A program made the position numbers and the translations under genes. Positions 6,957 through 64,000 of a stretch of 64,000 nucleotides of DNA are shown piece by piece (the stretch's first letter is position 1; each line of letters begins with the position of its first letter). Where the stretch lies: positions 186,001-250,000 of the forward strand of contig CALSRM010000003.1 in the NCBI GenBank assembly GCA_943788755.1. Direction: 5' to 3'. The notes beneath the pieces are model-generated. The model saw nothing but the letters and a program-made list of their open reading frames with translations, was not told the origin of the DNA and did no database searches. This stretch comes from an uncultured Flavobacteriales bacterium. Lineage in GTDB: Bacteria > Bacteroidota > Bacteroidia > Flavobacteriales_D > Parvicellaceae.

Positions 6957-6974
6957 ATGCGCATTATTTATTAG

Positions 6975-7004
6975 GAAAAAAGGGAGCTCTAGCTCCCTTT
7001 TTTT
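6975..7004 (+). terminator. Rho-independent terminator
   Basis: GGGAGCTctAGCTCCC inverted repeat followed by a T-run, 20 nt after the stop codon. Confidence 0.85.
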
Positions 7005-7200
7005 GTTTATATGCCGCGTTCTGACATAGGGTGCATTACCAATCGTAAGTTACTCATACTTTTAACCGTAAATATAATAATACAAACCTGATAATAATCC
7101 GAGAGGGAGGAACTAAGCTCATTGATGAATCAATTCATTAATCTTTATAACCATAATAAACCTCATTTTAGTCTAAAGATAAAAACCTCTAATTTTTGCA

Positions 7201-58840: not shown

Positions 58841-61477
58841 CTATTTTTTCTTTAATGATCTAGCAACCTCAACTTCCTCGTAAGATTCAATCTGATCACC
58901 TACTGCAATATCATTAAACTTATCTACGTTCAATCCACATTCGTACCCTTTAGCAACTTCTTTTGCGTCATCCTTAAATCGTTTTAGCTGACCTAATTCT
59001 CCGGAATAAATCACAACACCGTCTCTTATAACTCTAATCTTATTATTTCTAACAATCTTCCCTTCAGTTACATAACAACCAGCAATCGTACCAACTTTAG
59101 TAATTTTAAATGTCTCTCTAATTTCAGCATATCCAAGAATTTCTTCTTTCACCTCAGGAGAAAGCATCCCTTCCATCGCTTCTCTAACTTCATCAATTGC
59201 CTTATAAATTACAGAGTATAAGCGAATATCAATTTCTTCTTGCTCCGCAAGCTTACGAGCACTCATCGAAGGTCTCACTTGGAACCCAACAATAATCGCA
59301 TCCGAAGCAGATGCTAATAAAACGTCTGATTCAGAAATCTGACCAACCGCTTTATGAATAATATTTACTTGTATCGATTCCTCAGAAAGTTTTTGCAACG
59401 AATCCGATAACGCTTCAATTGATCCATCAACATCACCTTTAACAATAATGTTTAATTCTTGGAAATCTCCCAAAGCAAGTCTTCTTCCTATCTCATCAAG
59501 GGTAATATGCTTGGTTGTTCTTAACCCTTGCTCTCTTTGTAATTGTTGACGTTTAGTAGATATCTGCTTTGCTTCTTTTTCATCCGCAAAAATGTTAAAT
59601 CTATCCCCTGCCGCTGAAGCACCGTTCATTCCCAGCATAGACACGGGCTTTGAAGGGCCTGCTTCTGCTACTTCCACACCGTGCTCATCATGCATTATCT
59701 TAATTCTTCCATACTGCGTACCAGCTAATATAACATCTCCTACTTTTAATGTTCCAGACTCGACAATTAAAGTTGTTACGTAGCCCCTTCCTTTATCTAA
59801 CGTTGCTTCAATCACAGTACCAACTGCATTTTTATTTGGATTGGCTTTTAACTCAAGCATTTCTGCTTCGAGCAACACTTTTTCTAATAACTCCTCGATT
59901 CCTGTTCCTTTCTTTGCAGAAATTTCCTGGCACTGGAACTTCCCTCCCCAATCTTCAACAAGGATATTCATCGCAGAAAGTTGCTCTTTTACTCTATCAG
60001 GGTTAGCTCCATCTTTATCCACCTTATTAATAGCAAATACCATAGGAACCCCAGCAGCTTGAGCGTGATTTATCGCCTCTTTAGTCTGAGGCATTACGTC
60101 ATCATCCGCAGCAATTATGATTATTGCAACATCTGTCACTTGAGCACCACGTGCTCGCATTGCAGTAAAGGCCTCGTGACCGGGTGTATCTAAAAATGAA
60201 ATAAGTTTGTCATTATGATGAACACTGTATGCGCCAATATGTTGCGTAATTCCACCAGCCTCACCCTCAGTTACTTCAGAGTTTCTGATATAATCTAACA
60301 ATGAAGTTTTACCATGATCAACGTGCCCCATTACGGTAACAATTGGTGGTCTTGTTTCAAGCGATTCTGGAGAATCTTCTTCTTCAACAATAGATTCTGA
60401 AACCTCAGCACTAACAAATGTTACTTCAAAGCCATATTCTTCGGCTACCATAGTAAGAGTTTCCGCATCCAACCTTTGGTTTATTGATGCAAAAATTCCA
60501 ACTGACATCAATGTTCCAATAATTTCAGTTGGAGACTTATCAACCATCACAGCTAATTCAGAAACAGTTACAAATTCTGTAAGTTGCAACACGCGTGAAT
60601 CCATTTCTGCTATAAATTCCTCCTCCTCTCGCTTTGCACTTTGCGCATCTCTTTTCTCCTTACGGAATTTAGACCCCTTACTTTTACCTTTATTACTTAA
60701 ACGACTAAGAGTCTCTTGAATTTGTTTTTTAATCTCATCTGGAGAAGGCTCCGCTTTTTTGACAGTTTTACCCCTTGACTTAGTATGTTCTTGCGTTGCT
60801 TTTTTACCCGCTTTCTCAACATTTACAACCTTCTTTATACGTTTTCTCTTGCGCTTATCGTGATTAGGTTCAGGCGGAGCCTTCTTTTTCTCTGCAGGCA
60901 AATCAATTTTACCCAATACAACTGGGCCAGACAGCTTTTTTACCCCTGCTTTAATTGTTTCCACTGATTTTGGCTCCTCTGTTTCTGGAGTGTCTTTTTC
61001 CTTAGAGGTTTCTATAACCTCTTTATCTTGTTTCTCCGCCTTCTCCAAAACCTCAACTTTCGCTTCTTTTGGTTTCGGTGTTTCTTCAATTTTCTTGGCG
61101 GTTTTTTTTGGCTCCTCTAATGTAACTTTCCCAACAACCGAAGGACCCGACAATTTAGCAGGCTTAGCTTTTATAAGTACTTCGGGTTTCTTTTCTTCTG
61201 TCTTAGGAGAGGTTCCAGTATCTGGAGCTTTATTTTCCTCTTCACTATTAGCTGCAGCTATTTTCTCTTCATTCACTTTTCGGGTTTTATCCACCTTCAG
61301 CTTTTCCGATCGTGCACTGTCAAATTCCGCCAACAATATTTCAAATACACTTTCGTCTATTTTTGTATTTGGACTTCCATCAATTTCATTGCCTTGTACA
61401 GCAAGAAAATCAACTATTGTTGAAATTCCTACATTTAGCTCTCTTGCTACTTTACTTAGTCGTTTTACTCCTGCCAT
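58841..61477 (-). CDS. infB: Translation initiation factor IF-2
   Basis: 878 aa; [51 protein letters not shown]. Confidence 0.98.
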
Positions 61478-61590: not shown

Positions 61591-62832
61591 CTAGTCAAAT
61601 TCTGAACTTAGAATCTTCATAATTTCATCTACTGTTTCTTCTTCTAAATCCGTTCTTTTTACCAAATCTTCTTTTGAAATATCTAGTACAGATTTTGCCG
61701 AATCGCATCCTATGCTCTTCAGTTCATTCAAAATCCAATCATCAATTTCATCTGTAAACTCATCTAAATCAACATCATCAATATCTTCTGCTCCTTCACG
61801 GTAAACATCAATTTCGTATCCTGCTAATTTCGATGCTAACTTAATATTATGTCCTCCTTTGCCAATTGCTAAAGAAACTTGGTCAGGTCTTAGATAGACG
61901 TTCGCTTGTTTTCTTTCATCCTCTTCAATCAGTTCCATTGACACTACTTTCGCTGGGCTTAAAGCTCTTTGTATAAGTAGTTGCATATTTTCTGTCCAAT
62001 TGATGACGTCAATATTTTCATTTTTCAACTCACGAACAATTCCATGAATACGAGATCCTTTCATCCCCACACAGGCTCCAACTGGGTCAATTCTATCATC
62101 ATAAGATTCAACAGCTACTTTTGCTCTTTCTCCCGGTTCACGAACTATTCTTTTAATGGTAATTAGTCCATCAAACACTTCAGGAACTTCTAATTCAAAC
62201 AACCTTTCTAAGAAAGCTGTATCGGTTCTGGATAAAATAATTATAGGCGAATTGTTCTTCAATTCTACCCTAGAAACAACGGCTCTAATTGAATCACCTT
62301 TTTTGAAATAATCCGACGGAATTTGCTCTAATTTTGGTAAAATTAATTCGTTACCATCATCATCCAAAACAAGAATTTCTCTTTTCCATATTTGATAAAC
62401 CTCTCCTGTAATAATGTCTCCTATTCTATCTTTGTAGATTTTGTAAACATTATCTTTTTCCATCTCCATTATTCGCGCGACAAGGTTTTGACGAAGCGCT
62501 AAAATATTTCTTCTTCCAAAATCTACCATTTTAATCTCTTCGGAAACTTCTTCGCCAACTTCAAAATCTGGCTCAATCTTAACGGCGCTTGCATGCGAGA
62601 TTTGTGTATTTGGATCTTCTACCTCGCCATCTAAAACGATTTCTCGGTTTAACCAAATTTCTAAATCTCCCTTATCAGGATTTATAATAACATCGACATG
62701 GTCATCTGTCCCGTATTTCTTTTTCAGTGTTGCTCTAAAAACATCTTCCACAATACGCATCATTGTTACACGATCGATATTCTTCATGTCTTTAAACTCT
62801 GAAAAAGACTCTATTAAATTTAATGCATCCAT
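61591..62832 (-). CDS. nusA: Transcription termination/antitermination factor NusA
   Basis: 413 aa; DPVGACVGMKGSRIHGIVRELKNENIDVI, RPDQVSLAIGKGGHNIKLASKLAGYEIDV. Confidence 0.98.
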   Translation of the reverse strand: MDALNLIESFSEFKDMKNIDRVTMMRIVEDVFRATLKKKYGTDDHVDVIINPDKGDLEIWLNREIVLDGEVEDPNTQISHASAVKIEPDFEVGEEVSEEIKMVDFGRRNILALRQNLVARIMEMEKDNVYKIYKDRIGDIITGEVYQIWKREILVLDDDGNELILPKLEQIPSDYFKKGDSIRAVVSRVELKNNSPIIILSRTDTAFLERLFELEVPEVFDGLITIKRIVREPGERAKVAVESYDDRIDPVGACVGMKGSRIHGIVRELKNENIDVINWTENMQLLIQRALSPAKVVSMELIEEDERKQANVYLRPDQVSLAIGKGGHNIKLASKLAGYEIDVYREGAEDIDDVDLDEFTDEIDDWILNELKSIGCDSAKSVLDISKEDLVKRTDLEEETVDEIMKILSSEFD

Positions 62833-62839
62833 TTTGTTT

Positions 62840-63313
62840 TTATTTGAATGAAATTACTACTCTTGTTTCTTTTATATCACTAAAAGGTATTTCGTTTTGT
62901 TTAACTACTACCACCTTTTTCTTTTTTCCTTCTAACCTTTCTTTCGAAGATGTTTCAACTACAATTTTGTTGTCATCAACTTCTTTTAACGTACCCGTTA
63001 TAGAACCATGCTCTTTAAAAATAACCGTTACGTCCTTTTCAATATTCTTAATATATTGTTGCTGAACTTTAAACGGTTTATCTAAGCCTGGAGACGAAAC
63101 CAAAAGCTCAAACTGTGCGTCTTCGTCTTGGTTATGCTCAATGTTTCGACTAACAGACATGCAATCAATAATTGCAACCCCACCTTCCATACAATCAATT
63201 TCTACATTTATTGCATTTGAAGATGACACGGTTGCTTCAACGATATACAGACCTTTGTCTAATTCGTCTATTCGTTCTTGTGCTAACTCTATTATTCTTT
63301 TTCGTTCAATCAT
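62840..63313 (-). CDS. rimP: Ribosome maturation factor RimP
   Basis: 157 aa; position upstream of nusA-infB; LLVSSPGLDKPFKVQQQYIKNI. Confidence 0.93.
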   Translation of the reverse strand: MIERKRIIELAQERIDELDKGLYIVEATVSSSNAINVEIDCMEGGVAIIDCMSVSRNIEHNQDEDAQFELLVSSPGLDKPFKVQQQYIKNIEKDVTVIFKEHGSITGTLKEVDDNKIVVETSSKERLEGKKKKVVVVKQNEIPFSDIKETRVVISFK

Positions 63314-63321
63314 GGTATAAA

Positions 63322-63345
63322 AAGAGGGGACTGTCGTCCCCTCTT
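63322..63345 (-). promoter_or_regulatory. Terminator-like hairpin in the rimP leader (candidate attenuator)
   Basis: Minus strand AAGAGGGGAC gaca GTCCCCTCTT then TTT; perfect 10-bp stem ending 8 nt before the rimP ATG. Confidence 0.7.
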
Positions 63346-63368
63346 AATCTTTTAGTGTTATTGAGGTG

Positions 63369-63400
63369 CAAATATAGCGCTTTTTTACTAGTATCCAAAA
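63369..63400 (-). promoter_or_regulatory. Predicted rimP-nusA-infB promoter TTTTG-N19-TATATTTG
   Basis: Minus-strand TATATTTG (63369-63376) and TTTTG (63396-63400) with 19 bp spacing. Confidence 0.65.
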
Positions 63401-63470: not shown

Positions 63471-64000
63471 ATGGATTACGAAGAAATACAATATCAAATC
63501 GCCTTGTTAGAATTAGAAGGTATAGGAGTTACTATTGCCAGACAATTATTAGATCATTTTGGATCAGCTAAAGAAATCTTTAGCCAACCGAATAAGATAC
63601 TACATAGTTTAAAAACAGTTGGTCCGCAGCTGATTTCTGCAAAAAGCGATAAAGCGCTATTTATGGATGCCGAGAAAGAAATTGCATATTGTGAAAGAAA
63701 TAACATTCAAGTTCTGAGTGTATCTAATGACAACTACCCTAGACGATTAAAGCAATGTTCTGATGCTCCAATAATATTGTATTATAAAGGAAATGGAGTG
63801 TTAAACAACTCGAAAGTACTATCAATCGTTGGAACAAGAGCAGCGACTTCGTACGGAAAAGAAATTTGTAATTCTATAGTCAAAGAACTTTCTACTCACA
63901 ATGCGTTAACAATAAGTGGCCTTGCATACGGCATCGATGTTCAAGCACACAACGCCTCCCTTAACAATAGCCTTCCAACTATTGGAGTCTTGGCACATGG
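63471..64000 (+). CDS. dprA: DNA processing protein DprA (Smf), truncated by window end
   Basis: MDYEEIQYQIALLELEGIGVTIARQLL...PIILYYKGNG...LSIVGTRAATSYGKEI...TISGLAYGIDVQAH. Confidence 0.93.
   Translation, partial: MDYEEIQYQIALLELEGIGVTIARQLLDHFGSAKEIFSQPNKILHSLKTVGPQLISAKSDKALFMDAEKEIAYCERNNIQVLSVSNDNYPRRLKQCSDAPIILYYKGNGVLNNSKVLSIVGTRAATSYGKEICNSIVKELSTHNALTISGLAYGIDVQAHNASLNNSLPTIGVLAH

Follow-up and report, generated by a model that had tools for sequence, protein, structure and literature searches.

The leader of rimP-nusA-infB, an essential operon of transcription and translation, carries in an uncultured Flavobacteriales bacterium a promoter, a hairpin and a U-tract in close succession, and this arrangement is conserved among relatives, shows covariation and is restricted to rimP. 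By analogy with B. subtilis and E. coli, the element probably functions as an intrinsic-terminator attenuator that is tuned by a trans-acting factor, most likely NusA. If so, Bacteroidota would share a feedback loop that is known from Firmicutes and has been suggested for Proteobacteria, with the NusA step carried over from these groups. In Bacteroidota, the noncoding stretch that precedes this housekeeping operon is strikingly conserved, and it offers a site, absent from Rfam, where NusA function in this little-studied phylum could be directly tested.

Anatomy of the rimP leader

In the window analysed here (a stretch of 64,000 nucleotides), open reading frames and Pfam domains place rimP, nusA and infB in this order on the minus strand. 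The features of the locus are as follows.

62840–63313, minus strand: rimP (ribosome maturation factor; Pfam RimP_N and DUF150_C), with its ATG at 63313
61591–62832, minus strand: nusA, the candidate regulator (Pfam NusA_N, S1 and KH domains)
58841–61477, minus strand: infB, coding for IF2 (Pfam)
63471–64000, plus strand: dprA, the divergent neighbour, which runs off the window (open reading frame and Pfam DNA_processg_A; start at 63471)
63396–63399, minus strand: TTTG, the -33 element of a Bacteroidota housekeeping promoter (TTTTG at 63400–63396)
63369–63376, minus strand: TATATTTG, the -7 element, from which transcription is expected to start near 63362
63346–63362, minus strand: short AT-rich 5' leader without antiterminator, its start point predicted from the promoter
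63336–63345, minus strand: hairpin 5' arm AAGAGGGGAC, with the conserved core GAGGGGAC and class-wide covariation
63332–63335, minus strand: hairpin loop GACA, variable (the commonest loops in relatives are GAAA and GCAA)
63322–63331, minus strand: hairpin 3' arm GTCCCCTCTT, supported by conservation and covariation
63319–63323, minus strand: run of five Ts, the first two paired within the stem; U-tract of the putative terminator

The original prediction had described a promoter, a stem of 10 bp with a GACA loop, five Ts, and a gap of 8 nt between the end of the stem and the rimP ATG, and every coordinate proved exact. It had also placed dprA divergently from rimP, and the open reading frame and the DNA_processg_A domain on the plus strand bear this out; a terminator of an upstream gene was therefore ruled out for this genome. 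The promoter has the architecture TTTG-N19-TATATTTG on the minus strand and is of the Bacteroidota type, for which PMC7366714 quotes the consensus TTTG / TAnnTTTG. In the short rimP leader nothing resembling a Shine-Dalgarno sequence is apparent. The hairpin score was reached by none of 2000 dinucleotide shuffles of the leader, and the fold of the leader RNA (-18.7 kcal/mol) has a z score of -6.0. A second copy of GAGGGGAC-N4-GTCCCCTC was not found in the 3.17-Mb genome, even with up to two mismatches allowed. With its 10 bp the stem is too short for an RNase III site, and this function was ruled out. In some genomes the antisense strand also appears terminator-like, with a weaker score than the sense strand, because the stem is palindromic and the sequence upstream is A-rich.

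Conservation and covariation

A scan of named genomes yielded 80 rimP loci, mostly from Flavobacteriales and including Fluviicola, Brumimicrobium, Crocinitomix, Lishizhenia, Taishania and many uncultured organisms. The hairpin is present in all 80, as an exact GAGGGGAC-N3-8-GTCCCCTC stem in 76 and as a close variant in four, and a hairpin with a T run lies 5' of rimP at 30 of 30 loci of the same family. In 76 distinct leaders, identity is 97–100% at the positions of the stem and about 40–60% at most flanking positions, and the loop is variable. The T run that follows CTC on the coding strand is five long in 61/80 relatives and at least three long in all 80. Behind the five Ts comes one variable base, but the following one is T in 76/76 distinct leaders, giving TTTTTNT (63323–63317 in the window) with an invariant position in the U-tract. 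Measured from the end of the 8-bp core, the distance to the start codon is 10–16 nt in 76/80 close relatives and 24–50 nt in the other four, of which one start call (L043) is doubtful; it is longer in some other families.

The promoter is kept along with the hairpin. A strict TAnnTTTG occurs within 60 nt 5' of the hairpin in 77/80 relatives, compared with 3–4% of background windows, and the remaining three have TATATTCG instead. The distance from TAnnTTTG to the stem in these 77 named loci is 20–41 nt, mostly 25–31 nt, and in 53 of them a TTG stands 19 nt upstream of TAnnTTTG. Since a promoter lies just 5' of the hairpin in 80/80, a terminator of an upstream gene was ruled out for the relatives as well. 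The predicted leader before the stem measures about 22 nt, with a mean GC content of 21% in the 80 relatives. Four nucleotides complementary to the 5' arm, as expected of an antiterminator, were found within it in 0/80, and there is no conserved leader open reading frame, an ATG frame running into the hairpin in just 18/80. A leader of ~22 nt with 21% GC, in which nothing can pair with the 5' arm and no start codon is conserved, cannot accommodate a riboswitch, an antiterminator or a leader peptide, and all three were ruled out on these grounds.

Some of the public records in this set deserve comment. CP034120.1 (locus 2457–2974) is titled Glaciecola amylolytica, which is a gammaproteobacterial name; it codes for a Fluviicola-type RimP behind a GAGGGGAC leader and a TATATTTG promoter, and the record name looks wrong. 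The metagenome-assembled genomes titled Chitinophaga pinensis and Chryseobacterium gleum look closer to Crocinitomicaceae.

A broader sample comprised the regions upstream of rimP in 52 genomes of the class, representing 43 genera if the own genome is counted. A hairpin was found in the rimP leader of 52/52 of the class-level genomes fetched. In an alignment of 64 sequences, seven of the ten pairs have compensatory changes on both sides with pairing kept. Double-change cells that keep the pairing numbered 45, as compared with 10.8 in shuffles, and paired cells amounted to 90%, a value that fell to 47–71% when one arm was slid by 1–3 columns. The compensatory changes and the drop with slid partners indicate that pairing is what is conserved, and RNAalifold independently recovered the same 8-pair core. 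The two checks that had been proposed at the outset, for conservation and for covariation in relatives, thus both gave positive results: hairpin, T run and promoter are kept and similarly spaced at all 80 named Flavobacteriales loci, and the covariation extends through the class. Variants of the stem are GAGGGAAC/GTTCCCTC, GAAGGGAACG/CGTTCCCTTC, GAGGCACGC/GCGTGCCTC and GAGGGGAT/ATCCCCTC. In two members (L125, L134) of one genus (g25) the stem has wholly switched to GAGGCACGC/GCGTGCCTC, though the outer GAG/CTC remains; the other genomes of that genus retain the GAGGGGAC stem.

In lineages of the phylum outside the class, this position is taken by other stems, such as AAGTGGGG/CCCCACTT or TCGCCCG/CGGGCGA, each followed by Ts. 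Four of these loci (L177, L181, L182, L190) have a C-rich rather than G-rich 5' arm, such as TCGCCCGTAACGGGCGATTTTTG, with Ts just before rimP, and this C-rich arm is similar to an inverse motif described upstream in Gammaproteobacteria. An automatic score for a hairpin with a T run was at least 26 at 48/52 class loci and 21/28 other phylum loci, and in 1.5–2.9% of shuffles; the loci below this score were assessed visually, a weaker basis.

Specificity to rimP and relation to known leaders

Motif places were compared with RimP places in 198 genomes spread over the phylum. The exact motif GAGGGGAC-N3-6-GTCCCCTCTTT occurs in 23 of them, at one place each and always directly before rimP. With a covariance model built from the alignment, the rimP leader ranked first or near first in many genomes of the class; the 20 genomes checked had been picked for a top hit near rimP and hence document position, not hit rate. 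In five genomes the nearest look-alikes elsewhere were GGGAA-type palindromes between genes, mostly at gene ends. On inspection of these next-best matches, a further site of this type in the genome was ruled out, and their location implies that these genomes use the same build for intrinsic terminators. The hairpin build as such is not peculiar to rimP, but the exact GAGGGGAC stem is. In the window itself, a strong palindromic intrinsic terminator at 6969–7012 (AAAAAAGGGAGCTCTAGCTCCCTTTTTTT) also matches the model of the rimP leader and probably is an ordinary bidirectional gene-end terminator.

The closest known element is the rimP-leader (RF01770), for which terminators were described in many species; rimP ranked first among attenuated genes, and NusA was proposed as the regulator (Naville and Gautheret, 2010; PMC2965389). 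Like the rimP-leader, the element described here is a terminator-type hairpin in the 5' UTR of rimP-nusA-infB, is restricted to rimP, and has a G-rich 5' arm, a C-rich 3' arm, a T run, a strongly conserved stem and no visible antiterminator. A varying distance to the start codon, from a few to about 130 nt in the rimP-leader, is a further shared trait. However, the stem differs. Whereas the rimP-leader motif is GGGc(...)gCCC, the stem here is GAGGGGAC/GTCCCCTC with 5'-arm variants GAGGGAAC, GAAGGGAACG and GAGGCACGC, so that GGG/CCC are present and the adjoining c/g are absent. The main text of the rimP-leader paper does not name Bacteroidota. In Rfam scans RF01770 gave no match at the locus even at E<=10, and among 30 relatives it never exceeded the cut-off; only scattered sub-threshold matches appeared, with none listed at the locus of the own genome. 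In a relaxed-threshold scan all matches to curated families at the locus were far below their gathering scores, and sraA, STnc290 and the others were discarded as chance matches. The element would work in the manner of the rimP-leader; it lies where that leader lies, but with a different stem, and RF01770 misses it.

Both the attenuator reading and the link to NusA put forward originally have precedents in the rimP-leader and in the nusA leader of B. subtilis. According to a review (PMC12288461, referring to Mondal et al., 2016), NusA-stimulated termination in the latter was shown experimentally, whereas in Bacteroidota such stimulation would follow by analogy. The two leaders resemble each other in that a terminator precedes an operon coding for NusA and has a U-tract of the short, interrupted class. 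In E. coli, GGGCTTTAGGCCCTTTTTTT (i.e., GGGC TTTAG GCCC TTTTTTT) lies just before rimP, and the operon is known to be influenced by NusA (PMC6511841). Unlike the element described here, the E. coli terminator in the metY-rimP region is preceded by metY and a second terminator, and its stem sequence is different. Closer relatives were covered by a 2021 transcriptome of Flavobacterium psychrophilum, which listed a transcribed, structured 5' element upstream of rimP, common to other Flavobacteriaceae and without Rfam hits (PMC9723704). This very probably is the same element, and its existence in Flavobacteriaceae is therefore already on record. It was reported just as a family-conserved candidate, the main text giving neither a mechanism nor a phylum-wide comparison. 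New here are the phylum-wide extent, the covariation, the promoter spacing, the absence of an antiterminator, and the specificity.

Proposed attenuation and alternative readings

In the proposed mechanism, RNA polymerase would start near 63362, transcribe about 20 AU-rich nucleotides and then the GAGGGGAC/GUCCCCUC hairpin with its short U-tract. A fraction of the polymerases would stop at the U-tract and release an RNA of ~45 nt, and the remainder would read through into rimP, nusA and infB. Termination at the hairpin is the most likely outcome. Because neither an alternative fold nor a conserved leader peptide is available, the read-through fraction would most likely be set by a protein on the polymerase, for which NusA is the best candidate: more NusA would cause more termination and consequently less NusA. 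That NusA is the signal in Bacteroidota is the most likely reading, carried over from B. subtilis and E. coli. In line with it, five Ts followed by a variable base resemble the interrupted U-tracts of NusA- and NusG-dependent terminators, and interrupted U-tracts are a feature of NusA-dependent terminators (PMC8060035).

Plain termination does not account for the stem sequence, which is more constrained than a terminator needs. The identity of the RimP protein falls to about 50% while the GAGGGGAC/GUCCCCUC stem is exact at 76/80 loci. The stem is thus held tighter than pairing requires, either by a protein reader or by another constraint, and this raises the question of a sequence reader. One tentative idea, which we regard as possible though unlikely, is that a protein recognises the individual bases of the near-invariant stem, probably through the S1-KH region if this protein is Bacteroidota NusA, as seems likeliest; termination at this one site would then be under sequence-specific NusA control, unlike that at the ordinary terminators of the same genome.

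The invariant stem as a hint at a specific reader would also suit the same terminator-attenuator tuned by something other than NusA, such as NusG, Rho, feedback by RimP or IF2, the arrival of ribosomes, or growth-rate effects on polymerase speed. NusG acts together with NusA at most intrinsic terminators of B. subtilis (PMC8060035), and the rimP-leader study also weighed RimP feedback as an option (PMC2965389). However, among these factors only NusA has a demonstrated loop at this leader elsewhere, according to the review cited above (PMC12288461), and the varying distance between hairpin and start codon in relatives is at odds with a fixed ribosome contact. Tuning by a factor other than NusA therefore seems rather doubtful to us.

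The position of the hairpin also invites a translational reading, which we consider improbable. With its core ending 10–16 nt before the start codon in 76/80 close relatives, an observation that counts against the attenuator, and with a short leader that lacks an apparent Shine-Dalgarno-like sequence, the stem could lie upstream of the rimP ATG within the footprint of the ribosome, or protect the 5' end of the mRNA, and would then control RimP translation or mRNA stability instead of transcription. A hairpin that merely blocks ribosomes would not need the T run that follows the stem on the coding strand in 80/80 loci, however, and the longer distances in 4/80 (including the doubtful start) and in some other families do not fit such a position.

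The short U-tract, just five Ts before a mixed stretch, also speaks against the attenuator and could mark a site where polymerase only pauses and no RNA is released, so that NusA/NusG would have time to load or coupling to occur, and hairpin pauses are stimulated by NusA and NusG (PMC12288461), but the strength of the stem and a U-tract directly after it fit release better and make pausing alone very improbable. The reported distance from the hairpin to the RNA 3' end is 7–9 nt for release and 11–12 nt for pausing (PMC8060035).
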